Assembly (NCBI GenBank): GCA_014860745.1
Contig: JACZJC010000060.1
Span: forward strand, 1-59,750
Reading direction: 5' to 3'
Source: Anaerolineales bacterium
GTDB taxonomy: Bacteria; Chloroflexota; Anaerolineae; Anaerolineales; Villigracilaceae
Length of the DNA stretch: 59,750 nt
The notes under the pieces were generated by a model. That model searched no databases, had not been told where the DNA came from, and saw only the letters and a list, made by a program, of their open reading frames with translations. A program made the translations under genes and the position numbers. Below are positions 650-14,882 of the stretch, piece after piece; position 1 is the first letter of the stretch, and each line of letters starts with the position of its first letter.

Positions 650-1524
650 AGTTTACGGTATCGTGTGTACAGATAAATTAGCACCGCTCCAAGAAGAGTG
701 ACAGGCAGCATAATAAATCCAGCTTCGGGACCAAATGCCCCACCAGTCCATAATTCTGGACCAGAAACGACGATATGTAACAAACCAGGTCGATCATAGC
801 CTGAGACGGGGAATCCAAAGATTGCGCTTTCAAAGAAATTCCAGCCGAGATGTAAACCAATTGACAGCCATAATTGTCCCGTGCGGACATATGCATAAGC
901 GAGAAACAAACCTGCCAAAAAGATACCCGCAACTGCCATACCATTGCTATTTGGGTTGGACAAGTGCTCGATACCAAAGTATATGGAAGAGATCAGGATA
1001 CCCAATATCAGATTGAGACCGCTGGCGAGAGATTGCATAATATAGCCACGATAGACCAGTTCTTCGTTCCAGGCGACAAAGATGAACCACACAAAATAGC
1101 TTAATGTTCGAGAAATGACTATGGACGGGGTTTCGGATTCCCAGGCAAACGCGTCGAACTTCAACCAGCCCATGGAATACTCAACTACGTAGATGGCAAG
1201 AAATAATATGAAGGGTATGGCAATACCGACGAGAAGGTCCAAGCCCGTTTGTTTATTGATATTAAAGCCGAGGCTGGCAAATGAGCGTTTATCTGCAAGG
1301 CGGCGCGTGATGAAAATGGCGCCAGTGACAACGAAAAAATCGGTCAAATGACCAACAATACTTGTAGTGGGACCTGTCATGGATAGGGCACCGCGTACCC
1401 AGTCAACAATATTGAAGAATACACCTGTCAGAATCACTGCGATCAATATTCGCCAGCCAGCCCGCAGGCGGGATTTGTCGTCCGTGAGGAATATAAATGA
1501 AAATTGGGAACGGATGCTGTCCAT
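643..1524 (-). CDS. CPBP family intramembrane metalloprotease
   Basis: A 293-residue polytopic membrane protein of the CPBP (Rce1/type II CAAX protease-like) family, whose members are intramembrane metalloproteases linked to prenyl-protein or bacteriocin processing. The three family motifs are visible: EELVYRGYI (EExxxR) near residue 154, FGIEHLSNP near 184 and HLGWNFFE near 225, giving the Glu and His ligands expected for the active site. Around eight hydrophobic segments are present. The start is supported by a minus-strand AAAGGAGT (1530-1537) 5 nt upstream of the ATG. Its last codons run into the ettA remnant at 477-649, so the natural C-terminus may have been altered. Substrate unknown. 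Confidence 0.85.
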   Translation of the reverse strand: MDSIRSQFSFIFLTDDKSRLRAGWRILIAVILTGVFFNIVDWVRGALSMTGPTTSIVGHLTDFFVVTGAIFITRRLADKRSFASLGFNINKQTGLDLLVGIAIPFILFLAIYVVEYSMGWLKFDAFAWESETPSIVISRTLSYFVWFIFVAWNEELVYRGYIMQSLASGLNLILGILISSIYFGIEHLSNPNSNGMAVAGIFLAGLFLAYAYVRTGQLWLSIGLHLGWNFFESAIFGFPVSGYDRPGLLHIVVSGPELWTGGAFGPEAGFIMLPVTLLGAVLIYLYTRYRKLP

Positions 1525-1628
1525 GAGTGACTCCTTTTGGATTTATTGTCTTTAAGGAGTTAGACCACGATCAATTGGTTAAGTTTCAATACTTTAGAAC
1601 TGTTTTTTCAAGTTGAAGTATGGCGTTA

Positions 1629-1683
1629 AAAAGTGACAGCCACCTTCACCCACAGGGTGCTTCGCAAAGGTGACTGTCACTTT
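1629..1683 (-). terminator. probable terminator downstream of ettA (long hairpin)
   Basis: Arms 1629-1645 and 1667-1683 pair over 17 positions with one mismatch. Read on the minus strand the hairpin is followed by TTTTTAAC, so it can end transcription coming from ettA. Confidence 0.6.
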
Positions 1684-1687
1684 GGCT

Positions 1688-1813
1688 ATGTCATTCTGAG
1701 CAGTGCGGCACTTGCACCGCACGCAAGTGCAGGTGAGAATCTCTACCACAATGGGCGAGACTCCTGATGATGTCAGAGACTCTTCGGTCGCTATCGCTCC
1801 CTCAGAGTGACAT
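1688..1813. repeat. dispersed palindromic repeat, family A (diverged)
   Basis: Ends ATGTCATTCTGAG and CTCAGAGTGACAT form imperfect terminal inverted repeats; the interior contains further small hairpins. It lies between the ettA stop codon and the 1629-1683 hairpin, and is related to the element at 382-467. Confidence 0.6.
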
Positions 1814-1821
1814 GATAATTT

Positions 1822-3495
1822 TTATCTCTTCAGCGTGCGGTATTTCACCCGATGCGGAGTTAAATCTTTGCCGAATTTCTCGGTCATCATCGTTTCGTAG
1901 TCGGACCAGTTGCCGATGTACATTTTGGCGACGGAGTCGCCTTCGTAGACGATGAGGTGGGTGCAGATGCGGTCGAGGAACCAGCGGTCGTGGCTAACGA
2001 CTAATGCTACGCCTGCGAATTCGGAGATGGCTTCTTCCAAGGCGCGGAGCGTGTTCACGTCCAGGTCATTTGTCGGTTCATCTAACAGCAAAACGTTGGC
2101 GCCTTCGGTGAGGGTCTTGGCGAGATGCACGCGGTTGCGTTCACCGCCTGAGAGGATGCCGACTTTCTTTTGCTGGTCGGAGCCTGCGAAGTTGAAGGAG
2201 GAAACATAGCCGCGTGAGTTGATCTTGCGTTTGCCAAGCTCAAGATTTTCTGCGCCGCCTGAAATTTCTTCGTAGACGGTCTTCTCGGGGTCGAGGGTGC
2301 GGGATTGGTCGACGTAGGCGAGTTTGACGGTTTCACCAATTTTGATAGTGCCGCTGTCGGGTTTTTCTTGACCTGTGATCATCTTGAGCAAGGTGGTTTT
2401 GCCTGCGCCGTTGGGACCAATTATCCCGATGATAGAGCCTGGGGGAACAGAAGCAGTGAACTCGTCCAGAATGAGGCGGTCGTCGTAAGATTTGGAAACT
2501 TTGTCAAATTCGAAGACGACGTCACCGAGGCGCGGACCAGGCGGGATGTAGATATCCAGTTCTTCGCGGCGGGCTTCGGCTTCTTGCCCCAATAATTTTT
2601 CGTAGGCGGTGACGCGGGCTTGTCCCTTTGCCTGACGGGCTTTTGCGCCCATGCGAATCCATTCGAGTTCGCGGCTGAGAGTCTTTTGGCGCTGGCTTTC
2701 GGCTTTTTCTTCGAGGCGGATGCGCTCCTGTTTTTGTTCGAGCCAGGAGGAGTAGTTGCCTTTGTAAGGGATGCCGAAGCCGCGGTCGAGTTCGAGGATC
2801 CAGCCTGCGACGTTGTCGAGGAAGTAGCGGTCGTGGGTGACGGCGATGACGGTGCCTTTGTATTCACGCAGGTGATGTTCGAGCCACGCCACGGACTCGG
2901 CGTCGAGGTGGTTGGTGGGTTCGTCGAGCAGAAGAACATCGGGTTCGCTGAGCAGGAGTCGGGTGAGGGCGACGCGGCGCTTTTCTCCGCCTGAGCAGAT
3001 CTTGATGGGCGTATCCGACGGCGGGCAGCGCAGGGCTTCCATCGCCACTTCGAGATGACTGTCGAGGTTCCAGGCATCGTGCTTGTCGAGCTGTTCCTGT
3101 AGTTTGGCTTGTTCGGCGACGAGGGCGTCGAAGTCGGCATCGGGTTCGGCGAACTTGGCGTTGACCTCATCGAAGCGCGCCAGCATTTCGACGATGGGTT
3201 GCACCGCTTCTTTCACGACCTCGATAACTGTTTTCGTTTCATCGAGTTTGGGTTCCTGTTCGAGCAGTCCGTAGGTGTAGCCTTTGGCTTGCGAGATCTC
3301 GCCGATGTAGTCCTTGTCGATGCCCGCGATGATGCGCAGTAACGTGGACTTGCCCGCGCCATTGAGACCCAGCACGCCGATCTTGGCGCCGTAATAGAAG
3401 CCGAGCGAAATATCGCGCAGGATCATTTTGTTGCTGATGGGGATGAGTCGCCCCACTTTGTTCATGGAGTAGATTACGAGGGATTCGTTTGACAT
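1822..3495 (-). CDS. ettA: energy-dependent translational throttle protein EttA (ABC-F ATPase)
   Basis: A 557-residue soluble ABC-F ATPase, the length typical for EttA, which binds the ribosomal E site and tunes the first elongation step according to ATP/ADP level. Two ABC domains are present: Walker A GLNGAGKST near residue 43 with signature CSGGEKRRVAL and Walker B LLLDEPTNHLD near 190, then a charged linker (about 240-320) and a second set, GPNGAGKTT near 360, LSGGERNRVHLA near 450 and LLLDEPTNDLD near 472. The C-terminal TPHRVKYR tail is also typical. The gene is monocistronic on the minus strand. A remnant of its 3' end is repeated at 477-649. Confidence 0.93.
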   Translation of the reverse strand: MSNESLVIYSMNKVGRLIPISNKMILRDISLGFYYGAKIGVLGLNGAGKSTLLRIIAGIDKDYIGEISQAKGYTYGLLEQEPKLDETKTVIEVVKEAVQPIVEMLARFDEVNAKFAEPDADFDALVAEQAKLQEQLDKHDAWNLDSHLEVAMEALRCPPSDTPIKICSGGEKRRVALTRLLLSEPDVLLLDEPTNHLDAESVAWLEHHLREYKGTVIAVTHDRYFLDNVAGWILELDRGFGIPYKGNYSSWLEQKQERIRLEEKAESQRQKTLSRELEWIRMGAKARQAKGQARVTAYEKLLGQEAEARREELDIYIPPGPRLGDVVFEFDKVSKSYDDRLILDEFTASVPPGSIIGIIGPNGAGKTTLLKMITGQEKPDSGTIKIGETVKLAYVDQSRTLDPEKTVYEEISGGAENLELGKRKINSRGYVSSFNFAGSDQQKKVGILSGGERNRVHLAKTLTEGANVLLLDEPTNDLDVNTLRALEEAISEFAGVALVVSHDRWFLDRICTHLIVYEGDSVAKMYIGNWSDYETMMTEKFGKDLTPHRVKYRTLKR

Positions 3496-3692
3496 AGTGG
3501 GGTGATTTTATCAGAGAGTAGTGAATGGATGATGGAGAATAGTTTTTTGGGACGCTGATGGACGCTGGTTGATTTTTTTGGAAGATGTAACCCGCTTCAC
3601 GCTTCGGGTGAAGTTGGTTCTGTTTCGAGGGGCATTGTCCCAGTTTGTTAGCCCGCACGGGGTATTTCAGGTAAAATAGAAAAAATGTTTGC

Positions 3693-3721
3693 TTGACAGC
3701 AACGCTAATTGTGGCGATAAT
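3693..3721 (+). promoter_or_regulatory. near-consensus sigma-70-type promoter
   Basis: TTGACA at 3693-3698, a 17-bp spacer, and GATAAT at 3716-3721. This is the best -35/-10 pair noticed in the window. It would start transcription near 3728, about 160 nt upstream of the NYN gene and immediately before a short hairpin. Confidence 0.75.
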
Positions 3722-3727
3722 AGAGGC

Positions 3728-3791
3728 ATATCCCCCAGTAGTAGTTTCGACGAACCTGGTGCGAGACCGCCTCACGGCGGTCTCTGTGTTT
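3728..3791 (+). ncRNA. candidate small RNA or attenuator leader
   Basis: The segment between the 3693-3721 promoter and a GC-rich hairpin (stem 3763-3771 with 3776-3784, perfect 9 bp, 4-nt loop, then TGTGTTT). It has no credible ORF. The unit is about 64 nt. It could be a free small RNA or a leader that attenuates expression of the NYN gene at 3888. No known RNA family was recognised; this is inference from promoter plus terminator geometry. Confidence 0.35.
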
Positions 3792-3887
3792 ACCGCTTGT
3801 CTCACAAATAAGTATTTTTCGAATTGATTTATAAGCCAGAATTAGTAGTGTGGGTTTGCCTAATTATGCGGCACTTCGTAAGGGAAA

Positions 3888-4502
3888 ATGAAGACAAACA
3901 TCTACATTGACGGTTTCAATTTCTATTATGGTTGTATCAAGGGCACATCCTACCATTGGTTGAATGTGGCTGAAATGTGCCGTCTCTTGCTCCCGAACGA
4001 TCAAATTCACCGAATTAAATATTTCACTGCACTTGTCTCTGCCCGTCCGAATGACCCTGACCAGCCTGTACGCCAGCAACTTTTTCTACGCGCTTTGAAG
4101 ACCATTCCAAACCTTGAAATCATTCTTGGAACATTCCTGTCTCATGAAGTAAAAATGCCGCTCTCGCCGATTGGAAGCGGCTATGCCAAAGTGATCAAAA
4201 CTGAAGAAAAAGGCTCGGATGTCAATATTGCCGCGCATTTGTTGATGGACGGTTTCAAAAACGATTACGAACTGGCTGTAGTTGTCTCGAATGACTCGGA
4301 TTTGCTACTGCCGATTCAAGTTGTTACACAGCAATTTAATAAACCTGTCGGTTTGCTCAACCCGCAAAAACATCCAAGCCTGGCGTTATTGCCGCATGTT
4401 CAATTCGTCAAGAAAATTAGAGGAACGGTTCTGAAAAATAGTTTATTTCCAGATGTGTTGAGCGACAAGGATGGTCAGTTTTCAAAGCCTTCGGGTTGGT
4501 AG
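3888..4502 (+). CDS. NYN domain protein (LabA/DUF88-like putative RNase)
   Basis: A 204-residue soluble protein with the NYN (PIN-like) fold features: an N-terminal strand ending in YIDGFNFYY (Asp8, Asn11), EEKGSDVN with acidic residues in the middle, and VVVSNDSDLLLPI near residue 140. These acidic positions make up the metal site of NYN RNases, so RNA cleavage is the likely activity; the target is unknown. The start follows a weak GTAAGGGA. It lies 47 nt upstream of the vsr gene on the same strand and so may be co-transcribed with the restriction-like operon, though its base composition is closer to that of the core genome. Confidence 0.8.
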   Translation: MKTNIYIDGFNFYYGCIKGTSYHWLNVAEMCRLLLPNDQIHRIKYFTALVSARPNDPDQPVRQQLFLRALKTIPNLEIILGTFLSHEVKMPLSPIGSGYAKVIKTEEKGSDVNIAAHLLMDGFKNDYELAVVVSNDSDLLLPIQVVTQQFNKPVGLLNPQKHPSLALLPHVQFVKKIRGTVLKNSLFPDVLSDKDGQFSKPSGW

Positions 4503-4549
4503 ATTCTTTATGATCTCTCGATGAACTTGCTCAAGACGGTAATGGTGAT

Positions 4550-4993
4550 ATGAACGACAAGTATCTTCGTGATGGAAGAGCTCCAATCCCTTTGAAAGAC
4601 ATCACTTCAAAGGTTATGAGTGCTAACAAAGCGAAAAACACAACACCCGAAATTACTTTACGAAAGTTGCTTTCACATGAAGGCATTAGAGGTTACAGAT
4701 TAAACTGGAGAAAAGCGCCAGGAAGCCCTGATATAGCCTTTCCAAGCCAAAAGATTGCGATTTTTATAAACGGATGCTTTTGGCATAGGTGTCCATATTG
4801 CAAACCACGCCTCCCGAAAACCCACAGAAACTTTTGGAAACAAAAATTTGCCAAAAACAAAAATAGGGATAAAGAGAAGGTTGCAATATTACGAAAAGAT
4901 GGCTGGAGAGTATTGACTATCTGGGAGTGTCAAATTAAAAAGTACCCTAATCAATCGGTTGTAAGAGTAAAGAAAGTATTGTCAGCAAATTGA
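4550..4993 (+). CDS. vsr: very short patch repair (Vsr) endonuclease
   Basis: A 147-residue protein of the Vsr family, which nicks DNA 5' of T:G mismatches produced by deamination of 5-methylcytosine. Family hallmarks: an N-terminal SANKAKNTTPE region, GYRLNWRKAPGSPDIAF (the catalytic Asp is in GSPDI), FINGCFWHRC (active-site His and zinc Cys) and a C-terminal WRVLTIWECQIKK. Length matches the family. It opens a same-strand operon: its stop is 7 nt before the methyltransferase start, and the methyltransferase Shine-Dalgarno overlaps its stop. It may protect the host from mutation at methylated sites; in this cluster a restriction role cannot be excluded. Confidence 0.9.
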   Translation: MNDKYLRDGRAPIPLKDITSKVMSANKAKNTTPEITLRKLLSHEGIRGYRLNWRKAPGSPDIAFPSQKIAIFINGCFWHRCPYCKPRLPKTHRNFWKQKFAKNKNRDKEKVAILRKDGWRVLTIWECQIKKYPNQSVVRVKKVLSAN

Positions 4994-5000
4994 GGAGTAG

Positions 5001-6713
5001 ATGACTGATTTCACTGTAATAGATTTCTTCTGTGGCGCTGGCGGTTTTTCAGAAGGATTTAGGCAACAAGGTTTCAAAATAGTCGCAGGCATAGATAGTT
5101 GGAAGCCTGCAATTGATACTTTTAATTTCAATTTTGGTTTAACTTGCGAAACAAGCAATATATTACAGTTTGCAACTTCCATCAAACGAATCGAAGAACT
5201 GCCTGATACTGACATAATCTTAGGAAGCCCGCCGTGCGTTAGTTTTTCTTCATCAAACAAATCAGGCAAAGCTGATAAATCCCTAGGGCTCAAGCTTACA
5301 AAAATATTTTTACGGATCGTCGCAGTAAAAAAATACAAACCAAAGTCCAGATTAAAAGCTTGGTTCATGGAAAATGTAACTAATTCAAAAGTACATCTTC
5401 CTAGAGAATATTCGTTTGAACAGTTAGGACTAAGCAGTTGGGCTTTAGAACATAACTATGACCCCAAATCAATTGCTGTTTCACTTGAAAACAATCGTTC
5501 GGTGCTAAATGCAGCTAATTATGGAGCGCCTCAATCACGAGTTAGAGTATTTTCAGGTGAAATCATTAAAGCAAAGAAGCATATAACCCCCGCTCCTACT
5601 CACCAACAACCTGACCAGAACGAAGCTTTGCCAAAGCACAGAACATTAGAATTCATCAGAAAAAACCTGCCAAGTCCAATCTCGCTAAGATCTGATGATC
5701 TAATAACTGACCCTATATACCCAAACGTCAAGATCAAAACATCAGAGCTGACCGATCAATTCTACGATACTGGTTTGTATAAGGCTGATTGGGAAGGTTC
5801 AAAATTTCTAAAAACAAATCATCCCTATATGGGCTTTATGTTCTTTCCCGAGCGAGAAGATCGCCCGAGCAGAACAGTTACGGCTACCAAGATTGGAAAT
5901 TCTCGTGAAGCAATAGTTCTTCGTTCCGAAGGCAATAGAATTGGAGACGGCGAATACAGAACCCTCACAGTTAGGGAAGCCGCTACTTTGATGGGATTTC
6001 CTATAACCTATCAATTTATCGGTTCCGAAGGAAACAAATGGAAATTAGTAGGAAATGCAGTTTGTCCACCGATAAGTAGAGCTTTTGCCAAAGAAGTTCG
6101 AAAAGAATATAAACTAGGAGAGTCCACAGAACACTTTCCTGTAAAACCATTAGATACTGTGCCAAATCTGAATACATTTCACAGAAAAGTATTCGATAAC
6201 CCGCCGAAGAAAAAAAAGGGAACAAGATTCAGAAGACATCCATTCAAAGACGGAAATCTTACGGTTACTCTATCGAATTATGATATTGAAGAAAAATCCA
6301 GTGACAAATTAAAGTGGCGCACTTCTGTTCAATATGGGACAGGTGAAGGTTTTCCTGTGCAGAAGTTTTCGGATGGCAATTTCAAGAAACTGGAAAAGAT
6401 CATCGTTGGTTTTGAGAACGGGATAGAGTTTATTGAAATGATAAACAATGGTTTTTCAAACAAAATTGCTGACGCTGAAAAGCTACAGTTGATGTATGAA
6501 AATCAACAAAACCAAGGGGAATATCTCAATCCAATTGATCTGGTTGACACAATTGGCAAGATCATCAATTCGTTTGAGATAAAATCGCCAAATTATGAAC
6601 AAAAAGGCAATTACCCTTTGACCTATAAAAAGATTGTACCCAAAAAACAACTTATGGCTTTGTATGCAATCAAAAAAATATGCTCTGTCGCAAATGGAGG
6701 CACTAATGAATAA
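5001..6713 (+). CDS. DNA (cytosine-5) methyltransferase with C-terminal extension
   Basis: A 570-residue C5-cytosine methyltransferase. Motif I FFCGAGGFSEGF is at residues 9-20, motif IV with catalytic Cys79 in GSPPCVSFS, motif VI ENV at 124-126, motif VIII NYGAPQSRVRVF ending near 184, and motifs IX-X (TVREAATLMGFP, VGNAVCPPIS) end near residue 365. About 200 further residues follow motif X, rich in Lys and aromatic residues, with no domain recognised; this extension is unusual because Dcm-type enzymes normally end soon after motif X. The start has GAGGAG overlapping the vsr stop. Sequence specificity cannot be read from the sequence. It overlaps the next gene by 8 nt. Confidence 0.92.
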   Translation: MTDFTVIDFFCGAGGFSEGFRQQGFKIVAGIDSWKPAIDTFNFNFGLTCETSNILQFATSIKRIEELPDTDIILGSPPCVSFSSSNKSGKADKSLGLKLTKIFLRIVAVKKYKPKSRLKAWFMENVTNSKVHLPREYSFEQLGLSSWALEHNYDPKSIAVSLENNRSVLNAANYGAPQSRVRVFSGEIIKAKKHITPAPTHQQPDQNEALPKHRTLEFIRKNLPSPISLRSDDLITDPIYPNVKIKTSELTDQFYDTGLYKADWEGSKFLKTNHPYMGFMFFPEREDRPSRTVTATKIGNSREAIVLRSEGNRIGDGEYRTLTVREAATLMGFPITYQFIGSEGNKWKLVGNAVCPPISRAFAKEVRKEYKLGESTEHFPVKPLDTVPNLNTFHRKVFDNPPKKKKGTRFRRHPFKDGNLTVTLSNYDIEEKSSDKLKWRTSVQYGTGEGFPVQKFSDGNFKKLEKIIVGFENGIEFIEMINNGFSNKIADAEKLQLMYENQQNQGEYLNPIDLVDTIGKIINSFEIKSPNYEQKGNYPLTYKKIVPKKQLMALYAIKKICSVANGGTNE

Positions 6714-8139
6714 AGAAACTCGTATTCGAAAAATACAAGAAATTATCGACAGGGAAAAGGATAACCCTTTCGGGAGACAAGAGATTCCCTGGCAAGATGA
6801 TTTAGTGCCGATGAATGTTTACAAAATACCATTAGATTTATTGGTTTACAATAAATATAATGGTAGGATTTTAAGTAGAACCAAATCTCTTGAAACACAA
6901 GGTCGCAAAATTGATGAGACTACGCCTAAAGGAGATGAAATCATTGCGGATCTCCTTTGGAATTCTCGAGAGGACAGAAACAAAAAAACTCTTAAAAGTA
7001 TCTCTGATTTTGGGCAAGAAAAAGTCGGGATCATTACAAGGGATGGAATAATCATTGACGGTAACAGGCGGGTTATGTTGCTCAAAAAATCGGGGAAATA
7101 CGATTACTTCAAGGCAGTAGTATTGCCAGTAACTTTGGAAGAAAACCCAATTGAAATCGAAGAACTTGAAACAAGATATCAATTAGGTGAAGATGAAAAA
7201 CTTGGTTACAATGCAACCGAAAAATATTTAAAGGCAAAAGAATTATATTTGCGTCTCACAAGCCAAAAAGAAATAGATTTGAAGAATCTTGACGACAGTG
7301 CAATAACAAAGATCTCTGATTGGATGGGGGAAAATCTAGGAGAAATAGGTAAGTATCTTAGAACCATGGCTGTTATGGATGAATATCTGGAGTATTTAGA
7401 GTACGATGGGATATATACTCAACTTGATGATAGGGAAGATCAATTCTTATTTCTTACTAAATGGTTAAACGGTTTTTATGGCGCTGAAAGCAAAAAAGCA
7501 TTTGACGGTTATCAAAATGAAGATGTTGACGACTTAAAGGTGATAGCCTTTGATTATTTGAGAATTAGAAATTATTATGACGGAAAAGAGTTCAGAATTT
7601 TAGCAGACGGCAATAGTGAGAATCATTTTTTTGGAGATAAGGATATATGGAAGAGCTTTAGCAAAAAACATTTCGAGATATTTCGTCAACTTCCCAAGGA
7701 AACCCCGATTGACAACAATTCAAATAACCTAAAAAAACACCTAGATAGTAGAGATAATGATTTTTTTGAAAATTCGAAGTTTGGCGGAGACGAAAGTAAA
7801 TTTTTAGACAATCTCAATGTGCATAAAGATCGAATAAAAGACAATCAAGTTGCCGATCAGCCAGAAAAATTACTAAGAAAAGCAACTTCAACTTTTGAAG
7901 CTATAAGAACTGGACATCCATCTTTCGCAAAGCCAGATGTTCAAAAATTGGTTAAAGTGCTTGGAGAAAAAGTTTTTTCATCTTTGATGGATAAGTCGCC
8001 ATCGCGGGTACTTTCTCATGTCGTTGAGCTGTTGGAGTCGATTGATATTGAGGAGATACCAGAAACAGAGATTGACGATGTTGTTGCTAAAACCAAGAAG
8101 ATACAACAATTATGTTATCAGATCAATAAGAACTTATGA
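6706..8139 (+). CDS. ParB/sulfiredoxin-like domain protein of the restriction-like operon
   Basis: A 477-residue protein. The clearest motif is GIIIDGNRRVMLLKK (DGNRR at 118-122), typical of the ParB/Srx nuclease-like superfamily, preceded by a stretch (IPLDLLVYNKYNGRI) like the substrate-entry strand of those domains. The remaining 330 residues are helical and charged, with no further recognised domain. I chose the ATG at 6706 because GGAGG lies at 6696-6700; upstream in-frame starts at 6634 and 6694 lie within or before that site. It overlaps the methyltransferase by 8 nt and ends in an ATGA overlap with the helicase. It may act as a CTPase or DNA-binding clamp, but only the motif supports this. 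Confidence 0.7.
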   Translation: MNKETRIRKIQEIIDREKDNPFGRQEIPWQDDLVPMNVYKIPLDLLVYNKYNGRILSRTKSLETQGRKIDETTPKGDEIIADLLWNSREDRNKKTLKSISDFGQEKVGIITRDGIIIDGNRRVMLLKKSGKYDYFKAVVLPVTLEENPIEIEELETRYQLGEDEKLGYNATEKYLKAKELYLRLTSQKEIDLKNLDDSAITKISDWMGENLGEIGKYLRTMAVMDEYLEYLEYDGIYTQLDDREDQFLFLTKWLNGFYGAESKKAFDGYQNEDVDDLKVIAFDYLRIRNYYDGKEFRILADGNSENHFFGDKDIWKSFSKKHFEIFRQLPKETPIDNNSNNLKKHLDSRDNDFFENSKFGGDESKFLDNLNVHKDRIKDNQVADQPEKLLRKATSTFEAIRTGHPSFAKPDVQKLVKVLGEKVFSSLMDKSPSRVLSHVVELLESIDIEEIPETEIDDVVAKTKKIQQLCYQINKNL

Positions 8140-10097
8140 CAACAAATATATCCATTGATGTAAATCCACACTCATTCATAGTAAAAGGGCGAGCGCCTGA
8201 ACTGCTTGAAAACAAGAGACTAAAAATCTCTTTCTCAAGGCTTGCATGTTCTATTGATGCTGATGATTTACTTATTCCTTATCAAAAAGAAACCCAGATA
8301 CAAACTTTGCAAGAAATATTAAGAATTCTGACCAAGTTTGATTATGATGCGACATTATCAAGTAATGCGGAAAAGGAGATCGAAAATTACAACAGGGAGG
8401 AGCAATTATTTGGAGAATTTACTACTGCAGCTAAATCTATTCGCAATGATGAATTCAGGAAAAACCCAGAGCTGGTTGCTAAGTTTGACAATTTTCAAAA
8501 GACACTTAATAACAGACTATCACGGACTCTATACCCGCTTCAATTGCTCTCAGCCTTTCATATGACTTTTGCCCAAAATGTTTGCAACTTCTCGGTTCCA
8601 GGATCTGGTAAAACATCAATAGTATTTGGAGCATATGCCTACTTAAATAGCCTTCCCCACGAAGACCCCAAGCATGTTGACAAACTTCTTGTTATAGGTC
8701 CTATATCCTCCTTTGCACCTTGGGAAAATGAATATAGGGATTGTTTTGGCAAACCTGTAAATTCTTTTCGGATATCTGGGAATAACGAGATAACAAGGGA
8801 TGGAAAGCTGGAACATTTATATTCTTCAAATCCTTCCGAGCTCACTCTAATATTTCATGGTGGCGTAGACCACTACCTTTCAGATATTATTGACTTTCTG
8901 AAAAGAAACAAAACGATGGTAATAGTAGACGAGGCGCATAGGATAAAAAATCCAGAAGGCGTCTGGGGACAAAGTGTCACAGAAATATCTAAACATGCAA
9001 TATCGAGAGTAGTCCTAACAGGGACACCAGTCCCGAATGGTTATCAAGACATTTATAACTTGTATAAATTTATTTATCCGTTCAAGTTCAAAGAAATTCT
9101 CCAATTTCATTATCACAATCTGGAGGATATGACTAAAAATAGTTTACCGAAAAGCACTAGAGTACAAAGACTGAAAGAAAACATATCTCCTTTTTTTATT
9201 CGTATCAAAAAAAGAGACTTGAATCTACCGCCAATCAATGAAAAAATAATATCCGTCAATATGAATGCGCTACAAAGAGAGATATATGATTTCATAGAGT
9301 CGGAATATATTCCTTCTTTTCAAAAAGATAGCTCAGCTACAGCGAAGGATGTGCTTAATAGGGCGAAGCTTATACGGTTACGACAAGCGTCTACAAACCC
9401 TTCATTACTATTAAGAACACTACAAGAGTCTCTGGAAGAATTTGACCCAGATTACAAGCTCACACAAGATATAGATGAGCACATTGACGATTCTGAATTC
9501 ATTGGAAAATTAAAAAATTACCCCAACCGCGAAACACCAGAAAAATTCTTAGAAATCCTTCAACTTATTAGTTCGAATATCCTTCCCATAGGGGAGAAGG
9601 TCATAATATGGACAATATTTGTTCAGAACGCAGAAGAACTTCAACTCTACCTGGAAAACAATAAAATAACATCTCGCCTTCTTATTGGAAAGATCGAACA
9701 AACACAAAGAGAAATAACGATTGAAAAATTCAACAATCCTAACAACCTTGAATTTCAAGTTGTCATCGCCAATCCTTTTTCTGTAGCCGAGTCAATTTCA
9801 TTGCATAAAGGATGCCACAGCGCCATTTATTTAGAAAGAGACTACAACTGTTCCAACTTTTTGCAGTCAAAGGATAGAATTCATAGGGTCGGGTTATCTG
9901 AAAACCAAGAGACAAATTACTATTATTTCATATCGAAAAATTCCATTGACGAAGTAATTAATGACCGCTTACGCTTAAAGATAGAAAGAATGGAACAAAT
10001 TATCAACGACGACATTCCTTTGTTTAGCAGAATAGATAATGACGATGACACAGATGTCATAAAAGACCTGATTGCCAATTATGCTAAAAGAACTTAA
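8136..10097 (+). CDS. SNF2-family DEAD/DEAH helicase/translocase
   Basis: A 653-residue superfamily 2 ATPase of SNF2 type. A glutamine-containing LYPLQLLSAFHM segment precedes Walker A VPGSGKTS (154-161); Walker B is VIVDEAHRIKN (DEAH 265-268); motif III is LTGTPVPNGYQDIYNLYKFI near 293; the C-terminal RecA lobe ends with motif VI KDRIHRVGLSENQ, followed by the Y-I segment usual in SNF2 enzymes. The first 130 residues have no recognised domain. It begins within the stop of the ParB-like gene (ATGA), so translation is coupled. In this setting it probably translocates on DNA for the adjacent nuclease-like protein. Confidence 0.9.
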   Translation: MTTNISIDVNPHSFIVKGRAPELLENKRLKISFSRLACSIDADDLLIPYQKETQIQTLQEILRILTKFDYDATLSSNAEKEIENYNREEQLFGEFTTAAKSIRNDEFRKNPELVAKFDNFQKTLNNRLSRTLYPLQLLSAFHMTFAQNVCNFSVPGSGKTSIVFGAYAYLNSLPHEDPKHVDKLLVIGPISSFAPWENEYRDCFGKPVNSFRISGNNEITRDGKLEHLYSSNPSELTLIFHGGVDHYLSDIIDFLKRNKTMVIVDEAHRIKNPEGVWGQSVTEISKHAISRVVLTGTPVPNGYQDIYNLYKFIYPFKFKEILQFHYHNLEDMTKNSLPKSTRVQRLKENISPFFIRIKKRDLNLPPINEKIISVNMNALQREIYDFIESEYIPSFQKDSSATAKDVLNRAKLIRLRQASTNPSLLLRTLQESLEEFDPDYKLTQDIDEHIDDSEFIGKLKNYPNRETPEKFLEILQLISSNILPIGEKVIIWTIFVQNAEELQLYLENNKITSRLLIGKIEQTQREITIEKFNNPNNLEFQVVIANPFSVAESISLHKGCHSAIYLERDYNCSNFLQSKDRIHRVGLSENQETNYYYFISKNSIDEVINDRLRLKIERMEQIINDDIPLFSRIDNDDDTDVIKDLIANYAKRT

Positions 10098-11052
10098 GCG
10101 TTACGACAATCTTGGCACACCATCTTATTTTTTCCAACTACTAAAAGCCCTAAATGAGAACCCTGGGGCGGAGTGGAGACTGGATGACGTTAATCAATTG
10201 TTTTACAACAAAATCATTGACAACAGGAGAATATTTGACGGTTGCGTAGAACTGGCAATAAAAATCAAGTTACTCTTATTTCAGGGCGGCTATTTATTCG
10301 TTGACAAAAAACTCTCCAACTCCCTGGAGAGCGAGACGCAAATGAAAGATAGAATTGTTGAATATCTGTTCAAGGCACTAGCCGATGATGATGACTTTCA
10401 TCAGATATTCAACTCTAAATATTTGTCCTACGACATTATTTACAAATCATTTCAAATAAGTAATAGCGCATTTGGTTTTAAATTCTCAAACTTCAAGCAG
10501 TTGCTAATTGATTTTGATGTAATTAAATATCATCCGACGTCAGAAATTAAACATTTCATAATTAATTCTCGTTTTAGAAAAGTGTTTGATAAAACCGTTC
10601 TTCCTGAGATCAAGAAAAGAAAAATCGGGGTAGATGAGCTTGAAAAAGCAATGGAAGAGCAACGAGTATATGGAGAGGAAGCTGAAAAATTCATTTTGGC
10701 ATTTGAGGAAAAGAGATTGAACGGGAAAGATCATATAGAATGGGTTGCTGAATATGTAGCAAATGAAGGCTATGATGTTGCTTCGTATAACAATGATTTC
10801 GATACTGAACATAATAGATTTATTGAAGTGAAATCCTATGCTGGCGACAAGCCTTATTTCTATTGGTCAAGAAATGAATTTTTGGTTGCCAAAAGAAGAC
10901 GTGATAGTTATTGGTTGTATCTAGTTAATCGAGACAAGGCTGGCAACGACGGGTATGCTCCTCTAATGTTGCAAGACCCTTATGAAAATGTTTTGAATGA
11001 TAGTAAATGGATCGTAGGGGTCGACAAATATAAAATAGAGTGGTCTGGGTGA
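10081..11052 (+). CDS. DUF3883 (PD-(D/E)XK-like) nuclease domain protein
   Basis: A 323-residue protein counted from the ATG at 10081 (a TTG at 10072 is an alternative; neither has a good ribosome site, and translation is probably coupled to the helicase, which it overlaps by 17 nt). The last 130 residues match the DUF3883 pattern: GEEAEKFILAFE, IEWVAEYVANEGYDVASYN, then RFIEVKSY with Glu249 and Lys251 as an ExK pair, and FYWSRNEFLVA followed by YWLYLVNRD. This is a restriction-endonuclease-like core often linked to helicases in defence loci. The N-terminal 180 residues are helical and unassigned, possibly winged-helix. It closes the operon. Confidence 0.75.
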   Translation: MLKELKRYDNLGTPSYFFQLLKALNENPGAEWRLDDVNQLFYNKIIDNRRIFDGCVELAIKIKLLLFQGGYLFVDKKLSNSLESETQMKDRIVEYLFKALADDDDFHQIFNSKYLSYDIIYKSFQISNSAFGFKFSNFKQLLIDFDVIKYHPTSEIKHFIINSRFRKVFDKTVLPEIKKRKIGVDELEKAMEEQRVYGEEAEKFILAFEEKRLNGKDHIEWVAEYVANEGYDVASYNNDFDTEHNRFIEVKSYAGDKPYFYWSRNEFLVAKRRRDSYWLYLVNRDKAGNDGYAPLMLQDPYENVLNDSKWIVGVDKYKIEWSG

Positions 11053-11233: not shown

Positions 11234-12118
11234 CTACGACAGGTGAATAACGGCTCGCTTGAATGATTTGTTCTTTTGCAAATGCTCGATCAATGTATGG
11301 CGGTGGCAAAAATTATGGTCGGCTTCAAAACAGACCAATGCAATCCGCTCATTTTGGTTTGTCAGGTCAATTAGTTGCTTGATTTCAGTTTCTTGCTTTG
11401 GTAAAAGTTTGTTTTCGTATGCCTTGAATAAGGTTTTGTGGGAAACGCTTTCGCCAAGTCCCTTGCGCATGGCGGATGGAATTCCAAGTTCAGGAATGTG
11501 AATATATTTCATCCCTGCGCTTTCGATATATTGCTTGAAACTCTTCTTGGAAAATCCATACTTCATGGATTGCGGGTTATTGCGAACATCCACGACGACG
11601 GTGATATTGTTGGCAATAAGTTTGTTCAGGAAGGAGTCAATGGTCAAGCCTTCGTAGCCGATGGAAAACATGGCGGGATTCGTGTCTGTGTTCCATGCAA
11701 ATTGAAGTTGTCTTATTTCATCATGTGTAAAGTGTCTGCTTGCAATTTTGCTTCGGGAAGTGTATTGGGGAAAGTCACGATAGATTTTCTTGACGAGTTT
11801 ATCTCCGCGTAAATCGCCGATTTGCGATTTGAATTTCAATAGGGCGGTTTTGTCCGCTGGGGTGAGGTCCTTCAAGTAGGAGTGCTTAGTGCTGAGTTGG
11901 AAATCGTCCACTTGTTTTAGCAAACCTAAATCAATCATTCTTCGCTTATCGTAATACGAGAGGAAACTAAAAGGTCCGAACTTGTAGGGGAAAAAGTCGT
12001 AATGATTCTTGCCTGTCTGCTGGCAGAAATTAAATAGAAGTTTCTCACAGTCCGTGTTTTGCAGACTGCCGCCAAAAACTTCGATCAAGGCAAGGAGGAT
12101 TTTTCTTCGGTAGTACAT
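11234..12118 (-). CDS. DUF488 family protein with N-terminal wHTH-like region
   Basis: A 294-residue protein. The C-terminal half (about 145-294) is a DUF488 domain: FSIGYEGLTIDSFLNKL, VVDVRNNPQSMKYGFSKK, YIHIPELGIP and ALVCFEADHNFCHRHTL with its Cys-His cluster. The first 140 residues (MYYRRKILLALIEVFGG...) look like a helical DNA-binding or partner-binding region also seen in phage-type regulators. The start lies 8 nt after the hepT stop, so it is probably the third gene of the mntA-hepT operon. The biochemical role of DUF488 is not settled; nothing in the sequence fixes it. Confidence 0.75.
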   Translation of the reverse strand: MYYRRKILLALIEVFGGSLQNTDCEKLLFNFCQQTGKNHYDFFPYKFGPFSFLSYYDKRRMIDLGLLKQVDDFQLSTKHSYLKDLTPADKTALLKFKSQIGDLRGDKLVKKIYRDFPQYTSRSKIASRHFTHDEIRQLQFAWNTDTNPAMFSIGYEGLTIDSFLNKLIANNITVVVDVRNNPQSMKYGFSKKSFKQYIESAGMKYIHIPELGIPSAMRKGLGESVSHKTLFKAYENKLLPKQETEIKQLIDLTNQNERIALVCFEADHNFCHRHTLIEHLQKNKSFKRAVIHLS

Positions 12119-12126: not shown

Positions 12127-12465
12127 CTATTCTTCCAAGCTCTTCAAAATCGTCTCGATATTGAACTTCAACTCAGGAATATCCTTCTCGATCACCGACC
12201 AGACCGCATCTTCGTCAATGCCAAAGTAATGGTGAACAAGGATATTTCTCATGCCGATAATGTCCGCCCAAGGGACGTTTGCATGGCTCGCTTGAAACTC
12301 GGCAGGTAAAGAACGACAGGCTTCCCCAATGACTGAAATATGATTGACCATCCAGTTTTGGATGAGTTCGTCCGCTTCAAAGGCGGCTTTGCCCTCTGCT
12401 GCATATTTTTCTATGCGTTCGATGGCTTCAAGGATATCAAGCAAGCGCTCGCGTTCACTTCTCAT
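12127..12465 (-). CDS. hepT: HepT-like RNase toxin (DUF86)
   Basis: A 112-residue all-helical protein of the HepT/DUF86 family, HEPN toxins that act as RNases or as targets of adenylylation. The catalytic RX4HXY motif is intact as RNILVHHY near residue 73. It starts inside the stop codon of the upstream nucleotidyltransferase gene (ATGA overlap at 12462-12465), the classic MntA-HepT arrangement. Established knowledge: MntA-type antitoxins AMPylate a Tyr of HepT next to the RX4HXY motif; the Tyr is present here. Confidence 0.88.
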   Translation of the reverse strand: MRSERERLLDILEAIERIEKYAAEGKAAFEADELIQNWMVNHISVIGEACRSLPAEFQASHANVPWADIIGMRNILVHHYFGIDEDAVWSVIEKDIPELKFNIETILKSLEE

Positions 12466-12752
12466 AACGGACGTGCTTCCTTCATGACCTGTGGTCGTAT
12501 ACGTGAACGCAAACCAGCTTCAGTCACCACATCCACAGGTAATCCAAGCAAAGTTTGTAATTCACGGAGCAAACGCGCTAAATCAAGCAAGCTGCGTCCT
12601 GCTTCGAGTTTCACCAGGAAATCAATATCACTATCGGGGCGTGCTTCGCCGCGAGCCACCGACCCAAATACGCGCACATCATAAGCCCCATTTTTACGTG
12701 CAATAGCAAGTATTTGCTCTTTTTGGGATTTGAGAAGTTTTTCAATTTCCAT
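12462..12752 (-). CDS. mntA: MntA-like minimal nucleotidyltransferase antitoxin
   Basis: A 96-residue minimal nucleotidyltransferase with the GSX10DXD motif: VFGSVARGEARPDSDIDFLV near residue 28. It should AMPylate and silence the HepT toxin encoded directly downstream. I chose the ATG at 12752 rather than an upstream start at 12860 because the protein then begins in the family position and because a TATAAT box (12759-12764, minus strand) sits exactly 6 nt upstream of the ATG, implying a leaderless mRNA. The alternative start would add 36 residues of no recognisable type. Confidence 0.85.
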   Translation of the reverse strand: MEIEKLLKSQKEQILAIARKNGAYDVRVFGSVARGEARPDSDIDFLVKLEAGRSLLDLARLLRELQTLLGLPVDVVTEAGLRSRIRPQVMKEARPL

Positions 12753-12758
12753 GCTTGA

Positions 12759-12764
12759 ATTATA
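12759..12764 (-). promoter_or_regulatory. TATAAT -10 box for leaderless mntA
   Basis: Minus-strand TATAAT with exactly 6 nt to the mntA ATG. No Shine-Dalgarno is visible. A poor -35 (CTTTAA) lies 17 bp upstream. Confidence 0.6.
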
Positions 12765-12789
12765 AGCCAAAATTTTCGCCGTTAAAGCT

Positions 12790-13080
12790 TTGCAGACTGC
12801 CCTGTGGCAGGAAGTCCGCGCCAACAAGCTGGGAGTCCGCTTTCGGAGGCAGCAGGTCATTCAGGGATTCATCGTCGACTTTTACTGTCACCAGGCGGGG
12901 CTGGTCGTGGAGGTCGATGGGGATGTCCACGATCTGCAGAGAGAGGAAGATGAAAGGCGGGAGAAGGTGTTGAGTGAGATGGGGCTGAGGATAGTCCGCT
13001 TTGGGAATGATGAGGTCGTGAGGGAATTGTCCGCGGTGGTGGGGAAGATTAGGAAAATAATTCTGACGAAACAATCATAA
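12790..13080 (+). CDS. DUF559 endonuclease-like protein (copy 1)
   Basis: A 96-residue DUF559 protein, a Vsr/PD-(D/E)XK-like family of unknown role. The core is intact: LWQEVRANKLGVRFRRQQ, FIVDFYCHQAGLVVEVDGDVHD with catalytic-type Asp and Glu, EDERREKVLSEMG and IVRFGNDEVVREL. The ORF opens with TTG at 12790 and lacks the usual short acidic N-terminus, so it may be slightly 5'-truncated. Three further copies or fragments lie at 13947-14091, 14897-15205 and 16108-16222, each next to a toxin-antitoxin unit. It sits in the divergent spacer between mntA and the DUF433 gene. Confidence 0.65.
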   Translation: MQTALWQEVRANKLGVRFRRQQVIQGFIVDFYCHQAGLVVEVDGDVHDLQREEDERREKVLSEMGLRIVRFGNDEVVRELSAVVGKIRKIILTKQS

Positions 13081-13136
13081 TTTCCAAGTCCGTAAGAGGG
13101 TAAAATATGAGCTGGACACAAATAAAGGAGTCCGCC

Positions 13137-13388
13137 ATGGAAATTCGACATTATAAGTTTGACCGTATCACCCTTGACCCTGAAATCTGCTTTGGGAAGC
13201 CATGTATCCGCGGAATGCGGATGCCTGTCGCTTCGGTGCTTGGGTATCTAAGTTCTGGAATGACATTGAAGGATGTTCTCAAGTCGTACCCTGAATTGGA
13301 AGCGGATGATATTTATCAAGCACTGGCGTATGCTTCATGGGCGATGGAAGAAACTGTCCTGCCTATGCCTGGAGCAATAGCTGGATGA
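13137..13388 (+). CDS. DUF433 antitoxin
   Basis: An 83-residue DUF433 protein with the usual [21 protein letters not shown] opening split across residues 9-30 and [19 protein letters not shown] in the helix-turn-helix part. DUF433 proteins act as antitoxins and autorepressors for PIN-like toxins. The start at 13137 is fixed by AAAGGAG at 13124-13130. It overlaps the DUF5615 toxin by 4 nt (ATGA). Confidence 0.87.
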
Positions 13389-13756
13389 ACTTCCTGCTCA
13401 ACATGAACATTCGGAGAGAAATGATCGCTCCCTTACAAGAACGCGGTCATATTTGCCGCCATGTCGGGGATATTGGCATGTCTCGTGCAAAGGATGTTGA
13501 GATCGTTGCTGAAGCAAAACGAACGAGCGAAACCATCCTGACCCATGATTTGGATTATGGAAACTTGCTGGCTTTTTCAGGCGATAACGCGCCATCTGTG
13601 ATCATATTGCGATTGAGAGACTTGCGCTCTGATGAAATCCTGTCTCGTTTAGATGCTGTTTGGAATGAAATCGAATCCCCGTTACAGCACGGAGCCATCG
13701 TATCAATCTCAGATAAAAGTTTGAGAATACGGAATTTACCGATTGAAGGTGAGTAA
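13385..13756 (+). CDS. DUF5615 PIN-like toxin
   Basis: A 123-residue protein of the DUF5615 PIN-like family, putative RNase toxin of the DUF433 pair. Visible family features are the N-terminal [20 protein letters not shown] (the usual first Asp appears as Asn here), [28 protein letters not shown] with the central Asp pair, and [10 protein letters not shown]. The loss of the first acidic residue (LLNMN in place of LLDxN) may weaken catalysis. Translationally coupled to the antitoxin; a terminator follows at 13801. Confidence 0.85.
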
Positions 13757-14083
13757 GTTTGAATACCAAGTATCCCCAGTCGCGGGATAGAATGAAAAGG
13801 AACTCCGAGGTAGCTCGGAGTTTTTTATTGTGCGATCTGTCAACTCCAAACGGGCGGGGGAGGAGGTGGTCAGCGGACTTTGTCACGGATTCGCGGAGGG
13901 AACGGACTTTTCCGCAAATTCATACTTCATCCTTGCTCTTTCGGCGGGAGAAGGTGTTGAGTGAGATGGGGCTGCGGACTGTCCGCTTTAGGAATGATGA
14001 GGTGGTGAGGGACTTGTCCCACAGGGATGCTACGCGATCCGCTGTGGTGGGGAAAATTAGAGAGGCGGTTCAGGAGAGAGGAG
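13757..14083. other. 327-bp spacer with terminator, G-rich motif and DUF559 debris
   Basis: No intact gene. It holds the 13801-13827 terminator, a CCAAACGGGCGGGGG motif at 13846-13860 also found near 11076 and 16966, and a 3' fragment of a DUF559 gene (13947-14091). Confidence 0.6.
13801..13827 (+). terminator. rho-independent terminator of the DUF433-DUF5615 operon
   Basis: Perfect 9-bp stem (13801-13809 with 13814-13822), 4-nt loop, then TTTT. Confidence 0.85.
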
Positions 14084-14091
14084 CTATTTAA
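13947..14091 (+). pseudogene. DUF559 3' fragment (copy 3)
   Basis: Encodes REKVLSEMGLRTVRFRNDEVV and then VVGKIRE, matching the C-terminal third of the copies at 12790 and 14897. Between these blocks is a 21-bp insertion (CACAGGGATGCTACGCGATCC region) that makes an imperfect palindrome flanked by CCACAG/CTGTGG. No N-terminal half remains. Its end overlaps the 3' end of the nucleotidyltransferase gene on the other strand. Confidence 0.75.
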
Positions 14092-14659
14092 GCATATCTG
14101 CAATATCATCCCACAACGACGGCATCTCCAAAACTTCCGCAAATTGCTTGACCCACTTTTCAATGCGGGCAACATCCAGATTTTGATACTTGTCCGCAAG
14201 AATACGAATATCTTCCATGTCTTTTGGACGATGTGCGATTGCTTTGAGAATAATCAAGTCTTCGGGTGTGGGCAGGCGAAGTTGTAACGCCGCATCAACT
14301 TGATGAACGACACTGCGCTCAACCATCTCTTGCTCAAACGGCAGGACACCGAGAGACAGGTCAATATTGGTATTTGAAATCACATGCTTTAGGAGAACAA
14401 CTCGATTTTTCCTGGCGAACTCGGCGGCATTGTCAATTCGAGGCTCAATCCCCTCTTCACTTGCTTCTTTCAGTAACTGTGGAATATCTTTGATCGACAG
14501 CAAGAACATCGCATCAATGTCTTCCGTATAACGTGCCTTTCCCAAAATACTGACAGCCGCTCCGCCGATAATAACTCCGCGCTCATTAAAGCGTGAAAGG
14601 AGCCTCTGCAACGACTCTAAAGGCTCAAGAAAAGGCTCAATTCCTTCAGGCTGATTCAT
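14084..14659 (-). CDS. nucleotidyltransferase-type protein (AbiEii/DUF6036-like), putative toxin
   Basis: A 191-residue protein counted from the ATG at 14659 (an upstream start at 14713 is possible). The nucleotidyltransferase core is visible: GVIIGGAAVSILGKARYTEDIDAMF, giving GG-A and DxD metal-binding Asp residues, followed by IDLSLGVLPFEQEMV and LRLPTPEDLIILKAIAHRPKD, typical of AbiEii-like and DUF6036 nucleotidyltransferases that act as toxins. It overlaps the small upstream gene by 14 nt, so the two are coupled. Which member is toxin and which antitoxin is inferred from the general layout of such pairs. Confidence 0.75.
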   Translation of the reverse strand: MNQPEGIEPFLEPLESLQRLLSRFNERGVIIGGAAVSILGKARYTEDIDAMFLLSIKDIPQLLKEASEEGIEPRIDNAAEFARKNRVVLLKHVISNTNIDLSLGVLPFEQEMVERSVVHQVDAALQLRLPTPEDLIILKAIAHRPKDMEDIRILADKYQNLDVARIEKWVKQFAEVLEMPSLWDDIADMLK

Positions 14660-14870: not shown

Positions 14871-14876
14871 GGGGCA

Positions 14877-14882
14877 ATTATA
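14877..14882 (-). promoter_or_regulatory. TATAAT -10 box for a leaderless gene
   Basis: Minus-strand TATAAT with a 6-nt gap to the ATG at 14870; no ribosome-binding site is present. Confidence 0.6.

Follow-up and report, generated by a model that had tools for sequence, protein, structure and literature searches.

The CglI/NgoAVII systems, and BceSIV with them, consist of a DNA methyltransferase (MTase), a helicase-like ATPase and a nuclease, the last two being distinct proteins, and their cleavage is NTP-driven (PMC5737866 and PMC4267653); in some CglI homologues nuclease and ATPase are fused, and the nuclease of BceSIV and its kin is of the PLD type (PMC4267653). The DUF3883 domain, for its part, has been termed a novel restriction endonuclease domain, fused to SNF2 in restriction-modification (R-M) operons (PMC3710099), and is counted as a presumed group of Type II restriction endonucleases (PMC10609329); the accessible portions of these two papers mention neither a ParB-like partner nor an exchange of effector. 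We describe here a locus in which an MTase, an SNF2 motor and a DUF3883 protein stand together with a ParB-like protein. It lies in a window of 59,750 nucleotides (the whole stretch analysed, contig JACZJC010000060.1 of assembly GCA_014860745.1) from an Anaerolineales bacterium, whose genome amounts to 4.32 Mb on 82 contigs. Five open reading frames (ORFs), re-derived between positions 4550 and 11052, follow each other head to tail on the forward strand: a Vsr endonuclease, a C5-MTase called M hereafter, the ParB-like protein, an SNF2 ATPase and a NOV_C/DUF3883 protein. The junctions in this order are of +7, -8, -4 and -17 nt, all five genes start with ATG, and the operon has a GC content of 0.365 where the remainder of the window has 0.511, which confirms the tightly packed, same-strand and AT-rich gene group described in an initial annotation made from the sequence alone.

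We propose that this operon belongs to a modular, methylation-gated and ATP-dependent restriction or immune system, in which the site would be read either by an extension of M or by a resident restriction enzyme; we give this reading a probability of about 0.6. A role in defence at large appears likely from the sequence comparisons. What we computed are the gene set, the predicted folds, the conserved residues, the co-conservation, the exchange of effectors and the alternation between extension and enzyme; every functional step is what we infer from them.

Relatives were sought with a profile of three ParB-like proteins in a collection holding one genome per species, of which the best 80 of 86 confirmed candidates were kept, and the neighbouring genes were labelled with profiles of their own. 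This yielded 79 loci chosen by ParB likeness, and the same profile found 10 loci in viral contigs. Among the 79 loci, an SNF2 gene follows ParB in 75, a NOV gene is near in 69 (counting one TIR version in Pedobacter, L047) and a C5-MTase gene in 77; SNF2, NOV and MTase are together in 68. These counts are conditional on ParB likeness because the loci were picked by ParB similarity, and not all loci are independent, since ParB is identical in three metagenome-assembled genomes (L071–L073). Four loci (L057, L069, L071, L082) are incomplete at a contig edge. The spacing between ParB and SNF2 is at most 30 nt in 83 of 85 adjacent pairs, and SNF2 and NOV overlap in 74 of 76; as order and overlaps recur in other genomes, the arrangement of the operon is not due to chance. 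The loci come from Bacteroidota, Bacillota, Pseudomonadota, Chloroflexota, Campylobacterota, Chlorobiota, Omnitrophota and several groups of the candidate phyla radiation. Thus a four-gene core, made of M, ParB-like, SNF2 and NOV, recurs across many phyla. The initial annotation had made the novelty of the operon depend on all five genes being conserved together in unrelated genomes; this holds for four of them and fails for Vsr, present in 26 loci of 79.

The most telling pattern concerns M (positions 5001..6713, + strand, 570 residues). Its first part is a C5-cytosine DNA MTase (PF00145, E 6.6e-44, residues 4–366) with the catalytic PPC and ENV motifs, and a search of the host genome for PF00145 returned a single match, M itself. 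It is followed by a C-terminal extension of about 190 residues (6123..6710, + strand), with no Pfam match beyond residue 366; this extension has no relatives in Pfam or NCBIfam, and a profile search of the PDB gave only two matches at chance level (E 0.26 and 0.45). The idea of a hidden nuclease in the extension gained no support, as libraries gave no match and the conserved positions show no nuclease signature. Of 85 aligned MTases, the window and three duplicate contigs included, 52 possess the extension and 33 do not. We searched both groups for a separate Type II enzyme with the same two profiles, one BanI/DpnII-like and one MutH/Sau3AI-like (the MutH seeds being confirmed with Pfam): such an enzyme accompanies none of the 52 MTases with extension and 31 of the 33 without (28 of 30 when duplicate contigs are removed). 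The two remaining extension-less loci are L014, which begins at the start of its contig, and L049, where Pfam identifies a BglII-like gene. A BanI/DpnII-like enzyme gene was found in 18 of the 79 loci. The extension state switches 6 times on the SNF2 tree of 75 loci, at least 5 times on starred branches, and separates the sister pairs L017/L037 and L006/L040, on a tree that was built by a quick method and has long branches.

The neighbours of 51 extension loci were also scanned with domain libraries (92 of the 93 nearest genes, the entry left out being the M of L044 itself): no classical Type II enzyme appeared among the matches listed, which cover 25 of 90 families, so that enzyme families beyond the two profiles are partly excluded from these loci. 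Among the same listed matches, three of the 92 genes are AspBHI-type and one is McrBC, both modification-dependent by name; AspBHI-type enzymes beside a C5-MTase are an odd company. In the window itself there is no separate restriction enzyme among the operon and its two flanking genes, as a canonical Type II R-M system would have. Altogether these data suggest, from gene content, that the extension of M and the separate restriction enzyme might be alternative readers of the unmethylated site. M besides appears to be a portable unit that moves between cores, given that the M of L069 is 78% identical to that of the window when its ParB is only 38% and its SNF2 46% identical.

The alternation bears on two other explanations. 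According to one, ParB, SNF2 and effector would form a guard or abortive-infection module set upon an R-M system: they would watch M or the R-M reaction and, instead of restricting DNA directly, kill the cell or arrest it once methylation breaks down or restriction can no longer cope. An M and a separate Type II-type enzyme gene (BanI/DpnII-, MutH/Sau3AI- or BglII-like, or NgoBV) do stand beside the core in 32 of the 85 loci with an aligned M, three duplicate contigs included, and L046 and L021 each carry two ParB genes with one gene labelled M; TIR, HEPN and hydrolase effectors, all encountered in relatives, are kinds used for cell shutdown. On the other hand the main form, including that of the window, has no separate enzyme beside M, as the count for the 52 extension loci indicates, so that little would be left to guard, and the commonest effector is a nuclease. 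We hold a guard function to be unlikely. According to the other explanation, the locus would be a plain ATP-dependent, Type II-like restriction system of the CglI kind, where the ParB-like protein would be the subunit that binds DNA site-specifically through its helix-turn-helix (HTH), SNF2 would serve as motor, NOV_C would cut and M would do no more than protect, effector swaps being rare side branches. The composition of CglI/NgoAVII, where the MTase is joined by a nuclease and by a helicase-like protein driven by ATP (PMC5737866, PMC4267653), is in favor of it, as are the single C5-MTase of the genome, the one motor and the one nuclease of the operon and the HTH predicted in ParB; so is the NOV_C form, by far the commonest. 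Extension-less loci argue in the opposite direction: 31 of 33 already have a Type II enzyme, beside which another plain one would be superfluous.

This last explanation also makes ParB the reader of the site, and the ParB-like protein (6706..8139, + strand, 477 residues) had to be looked at more closely. It has no match in Pfam, PADLOC or NCBIfam; of 71 proteins scanned, 25 have a weak match to ddrB-ParB (best E 4e-4) and 13 to HTH_ParB (best E 2e-4). Its identity comes from the AlphaFold2 model (predicted local distance difference test score, pLDDT, 93.8) and from conserved motifs. The model predicts a ParB/Srx nucleotide-binding domain (about residues 30–165, with the motifs DGNRR and ETxxQ), a ParB-type HTH (about 166–310) and a helical C-terminus. 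The top ten Foldseek matches are all ParB, Noc, KorB, Spo0J or pNOB8 ParB, the best being Noc (7nfu, E 5.3e-4); VIA-align superposes residues 36–318 on KorB (8qa9, Z 11.6, root mean square deviation, rmsd, 4.3, 202 residues aligned), and pNOB8 ParB and Noc follow at Z near 10. By sequence, the PDB gave the ParB profile only four matches at chance level. The host genome has one ordinary ParB match, and a profile alignment to it places DGNRR on AGERR, ET on EN and HTH on HTH; this alignment is weak alone (P 0.007, probability 5.6%, single template) but in register, and together with the fold of the model it assigns the protein to the ParB/Srx superfamily, so that the ParB-like label of the initial annotation stands as a predicted fold. 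Residues D118, G119, N120, R121, E155, T156 and Q159 are the same in each of the 91 aligned proteins that have letters at these positions, that of the window among them. ParB clamps are CTP-gated; the fold predicted here is that of such nucleotide-gated DNA clamps, with altered pocket residues.

Does ParB read the site? Distances were compared over 820 usable pairs from 42 rows, that of the window among them, in which M has its extension and none of the four proteins is missing. The distances of the target-recognition region of M correlate with those of the ParB HTH at r 0.57 and with those of the ParB N-domain at 0.71: the divergence of the HTH follows the target-recognition region no better than that of the N-domain does. 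Five loci with a window-like M, compared with ten others in sliding windows, show no stretch of ParB above +0.10, hence no specially conserved ParB region, and in the same comparison two overlapping windows of SNF2 (481–540) reach +0.14. With L069, where M is far closer to that of the window than ParB is, these observations run counter to a restriction system of the CglI kind, which we regard as doubtful. Site reading by the ParB HTH was lowered among our candidates, being unsupported by distances and by sliding windows, in a HTH region of only 67 residues.

The ParB-like and SNF2 distances, in turn, track each other closely (r 0.91). This weighs on another possibility, that the ParB-like protein is an effector or a regulator in its own right (a nuclease, an NTP-consuming enzyme or a transcription factor, as proposed for DndB), SNF2 and NOV acting without it. 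ParB/Srx proteins of conflict systems are indeed reported as nucleases or NTPases (accessible portions of PMC5512222 and PMC10853773), but here ParB is the near-constant neighbor of SNF2 and its best matches among solved structures are ParB, Noc and KorB with their HTH, which makes an autonomous ParB improbable.

The two genes downstream fit an ATP-dependent restriction. The SNF2 protein (8136..10097, + strand, 653 residues) is a superfamily 2 ATPase/translocase (PF00176, E 2.4e-29; PF00271, E 4.1e-8) with intact catalytic motifs: GxGKT, DEAH and Q577/R581/R584 are kept in 83 of 83 aligned proteins. The NOV_C/DUF3883 effector (10081..11052, + strand, 323 residues; PF13020, E 1e-18) starts at the ATG 10081, while its longest frame opens with TTG at 10072. 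Its AlphaFold2 model (pLDDT 92.2; predicted template modelling score, pTM, 0.61) comprises a winged-helix adaptor (1–172), a long helix and a PD-(D/E)xK-type nuclease domain (190–310, with E202, D232, E249 and K251). Foldseek found nothing significant for this model (best E 0.069), and the NOV profile matched no PDB sequence. The nuclease match rests on VIA-align, whose list of matches is mostly for the winged-helix part: for the nuclease part (about 189–309) it gives chain 9qcc_Y of XauSPARDA (Z 9.4, rmsd 3.3, 108 aligned) and the Hjc resolvase 1gef (Z 8.1, rmsd 2.9, 93 aligned). This predicted core fold, with the D and ExK residues, places the domain in the PD-(D/E)xK group. The four residues are kept in 73 of 74 NOV proteins, the exception being the TIR variant L047, and the nuclease part matches known or candidate defence proteins in PADLOC (PD-T4-1, E 4e-14; TmtA, 1.6e-13; PDC-S36, 6.4e-13). 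The earlier suggestion that helicase and DUF3883 restrict is consistent with this intact motor and this PD-(D/E)xK-type domain beside a C5-MTase.

The effector domain of the core appears exchangeable, as judged from sequence. In the Pedobacter locus L047, the effector matches the NOV adaptor over residues 3–184 (66.9 bits) but lacks the nuclease residues, in whose place stands a TIR domain (residues 209–346, ThsB-like in PADLOC, E 9.5e-46; TIR_2, E 1.3e-12). In distant relatives a PLD domain is fused to SNF2, above the Pfam cut-off in L107 and under it in L148 and L150; these fusions resemble the fused CglI homologues (PMC4267653, accessible portions) and speak in that respect for the CglI kind. 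In L149 (8349–10463) a Swt1-like HEPN domain is fused to ParB in a protein of 705 residues, without SNF2, and the adjoining genes are labelled C5-MTase by our own profile. An alpha/beta hydrolase follows ParB, also without SNF2, in L093 and L084, and by position in L080; four neighbor genes of the M-extension loci match the alpha/beta hydrolase family too. Finally ParB and SNF2 stand with a MutH/Sau3AI-family enzyme and without NOV in L029, and in L034 by profile match. None of the TIR, HEPN and hydrolase effectors is an enzyme that cuts at a site, which again fits badly with the CglI kind.

The MTase varies as well. Distant ParB-SNF2 pairs stand beside D12 N6-adenine (N6A) MTases in L114, L115 and L144, and beside N6_N4 MTases in L112, L116, L145, L151, L152, L154 and L156; on an Enterococcus plasmid (L105) the pair comes directly after an annotated Type III MTase-endonuclease pair. 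On another Enterococcus plasmid (L106) it follows an uncharacterised HTH protein of 864 residues. One might go further and see a distinct class of immunity, where a nucleotide-gated clamp of ParB fold and an SNF2 motor form a general sensor of unmodified DNA that would work with many MTases (C5, N6A/N4-cytosine, Type III) as well as with a range of effectors (nuclease, TIR, HEPN, lipase-like hydrolase, PLD), with the site read by a new C-terminal domain of M or a resident enzyme, and restriction and suicide interchangeable; we put this wider view forward tentatively, with less than even confidence.

For the modular, methylation-gated system that we favor, the following course can be imagined. 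M would methylate cytosines at its own site in the host DNA, as its family does, and Vsr, when present, would repair the T:G mismatches arising by deamination of 5-methylcytosine. An unmethylated site on incoming DNA would be reported to the ParB-SNF2 core by the site reader, in the window most likely M via its C-terminal extension, and elsewhere perhaps a separate Type II restriction enzyme. The ParB-like protein would then load on DNA, as a nucleotide-gated clamp or as an adaptor, and recruit the SNF2 motor, a step suggested by the ParB fold with its HTH and by the near-constant pairing. Translocation by SNF2 might bring or activate the effector held via its winged helices, and here the PD-(D/E)xK-type domain of NOV_C would cut the DNA. 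Since the effector is exchanged in relatives (TIR, PLD, HEPN, alpha/beta hydrolase, MutH/Sau3AI-type), the core could act as a sensor with varied output, triggering either DNA cutting or cell shutdown.

Several observations nevertheless weigh against this proposal. NOV is missing from four loci with SNF2 (L027, L029, L034, L094) although their contigs continue, and likewise from the viral L006; ParB occurs without SNF2 in L080, L084, L093, L149 and L155. Core genes are interrupted in several loci (e.g. L025, L040, L044, L054), which may reflect decay or sequencing errors. Neither the distances of the ParB regions nor the sliding windows reveal a site reader, and the extension could be the lineage mark of one clade of M without enzyme partner. 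Nucleotide binding by the ParB-like protein, lastly, is only presumed from the model, as GNRR/ETxxQ replace the GERR/ENxxR of the host ParB.

Vsr (4550..4993, + strand, 147 residues) is a T:G mismatch nicking endonuclease by family, the profile TIGR00632 (E 6.1e-35, above cut-off; PF03852, E 1e-20) agreeing with the motif residues: all 29 aligned Vsr-like proteins, that of the window among them, have D61, and 28 of them have H79. Its presence near ParB, limited to the 26 loci mentioned, changes state 17 times on the SNF2 tree. Vsr is thus an optional accessory of the C5-MTase and not a part of the core, which accords with its known role beside C5-MTases. The Vsr family repairs T:G mismatches left by deaminated 5-methylcytosine and has no role in self-marking; the view of Vsr as a core part protecting self DNA is supported on neither count.

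Could the operon serve 5-methylcytosine-linked DNA repair or genome maintenance, with Vsr, helicase and nuclease, rather than defence? Vsr is a repair enzyme and SNF2 proteins serve repair in eukaryotes, but Vsr is mostly absent, TIR and HEPN effectors occur, and the distribution is patchy. In samples of genomes, each count including its seed genome, the ParB-like protein as query matched 3 of 301 genomes of its own phylum, and the ParB profile 3 of 298 of its own class; the profile also matched 5 of 251 genomes in the family of the Pedobacter locus and 9 of 395 in its phylum, 9 of 368 in the phylum of L050 and 5 of 369 in that of L087. The gene set is therefore rare, in 1–2.5% of the genomes of four phylum samples. 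Of the 32 distinct genomes matched, 29 neighborhoods were viewed (four of them seeds; the weak G904, G1497 and G1820 being left out): SNF2 adjoins ParB in 26, in L145 after one short ORF, and the three exceptions are L117 (hydrolase), L149 (the HEPN fusion) and L155. The set is also carried by a prophage record, by viral contigs and by plasmids, which speaks against repair or maintenance, a reading that appears very improbable. The prophage record is that of Streptococcus phage Javan191 (L002), whose first five genes (1–6613) are the ParB-SNF2-NOV core, a BanI/DpnII-like enzyme gene and a divergent C5-MTase. Among plasmids, 78 records carry SNF2 relatives (E up to 1e-20), 52 of them from Enterococcus; three of these neighborhoods were viewed. 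A plasmid tblastn with the ParB-like protein and a near-identity search of E. coli genomes gave no match.

The window adds some context. No match to the ParB-like protein was found in the seven other genomes of the genus, within the sample of the own phylum; this and the low GC of the operon suggest its acquisition by transfer. The gene before it (3888–4502) has a NYN domain and matches the PADLOC candidate HEC-09 (E 3.9e-38), the one after it (11234–12118) is a DUF488 gene matching the candidate PDC-M19A (E 5e-100), and given these two matches the operon may sit within a small defence-like island. Further on, 12127–16033 holds several small gene pairs which by eye look like toxin-antitoxin or HEPN/nucleotidyltransferase pairs; 21435–26201 encodes a secreted-looking protein of 1588 residues, by eye with a sugar-dehydrogenase-like propeller, PKD and MBG-type repeats and a sortase-like C-terminus; and a local GC dip (0.398, 28001–29000) lies between two genes resembling phytoene desaturases by eye.

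The usual view of R-M is that it cuts where a site lacks methylation; here several classes of MTase and several unrelated effectors, some of kinds that would shut down the cell, accompany a single conserved ParB-SNF2 core. If our proposal is true, self-marking by methylation would be linked to exchangeable immune outputs, and ParB-type clamps would gain a role in immunity. The alternation of extension and enzyme makes the question of site reading directly testable, and the adjacency of ParB and SNF2 with an MTase offers a signature for annotation that has no name in PADLOC 2.0.0, Pfam and NCBIfam. Of the initial annotation, the gene set, the ParB likeness and the fit with restriction are supported, Vsr as a core part is not, and the four-gene core, the effector swap, the alternation and the other MTase classes lay beyond what it could see. 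The finding is therefore wider than that first account: a recurrent ParB-SNF2 core tied to DNA modification, with exchangeable effectors and site readers that would be exchangeable too.

How does this gene set compare with the known systems? In the open-access literature, as far as its texts are accessible and with most subscription journals outside this scope, we recognized no ParB-SNF2-DUF3883 set, and the accessible portions of papers on ParB in conflict systems (PMC5512222, PMC10853773) and on BREX-related systems (PMC12839542) describe none. Library scans (PADLOC 2.0.0, Pfam, NCBIfam) took in seven proteins of the window, the five of the operon and the two flanking. In PADLOC the operon proteins matched generic models for Type II MTases and for Vsr, and others in part, and the seven proteins matched no named system as a set. 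In clusters with Z1, MutL and AIPR, a Dcm-type MTase accompanies Vsr. The same pair is found here, and Z1, MutL and AIPR have no match in the operon or the two flanking genes (Pfam), nor does DrmB (PADLOC), so that the absence of Z1, DrmB and MutL noted at first is borne out. DISARM comprises DrmA, DrmB and DrmC. It likewise has an SNF2-type helicase (DrmD) and a C5-MTase (DrmMII), but the profile matches here are partial or below those of generic models: SNF2 partially matches DrmD, and DrmA weakly (E 4e-5), DrmB and DrmC are without match among the seven proteins, and ParB-like and NOV_C proteins are found instead.

In the type I Zorya system, the SWI2/SNF2 region of ZorD is the best PADLOC match of our SNF2 protein (E 1.3e-26), which also partially matches DpdE. 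Zorya comprises ZorA and ZorB, neither of which has a match among the seven proteins scanned; moreover the helicase here has 653 residues when most matched ZorD models have about 1000–1200, and an MTase is present. Hma (helicase-methylase-ATPase) consists of the helicase HmaA, the adenine methylase HmaB and HmaC. NOV_C matches the C-terminus of HmaA, and only weakly (E 3e-5), and the MTases of the distant L112 and L113 match HmaB best; by contrast the operon has a C5 enzyme in M, encodes helicase and nuclease in two genes and adds a ParB-like protein. Thus defining parts of DISARM, Zorya and Hma lack a match here, and the gene set fits no named system among those tested, as had been supposed. 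With the nucleotide-dependent clamps ParB, Noc and KorB the ParB-like protein shares an N-terminal nucleotide-binding fold and an HTH, both predicted; it differs by GNRR/ETxxQ instead of GERR/ENxxR in every aligned relative with letters there, by another C-terminus and by its SNF2 partner. As for CglI/NgoAVII, the accessible portions of their texts (PMC5737866, PMC4267653) name no ParB, and the PLD nuclease of BceSIV and its kin has no match in the seven proteins of the window, PLD occurring only fused to SNF2 in distant relatives, where the window has a PD-(D/E)xK-type NOV_C. In its presumed working our system would nonetheless be most like CglI/NgoAVII, from which it is set apart by an SNF2-type motor, a dedicated ParB-fold protein, an exchangeable effector and the extension of M.

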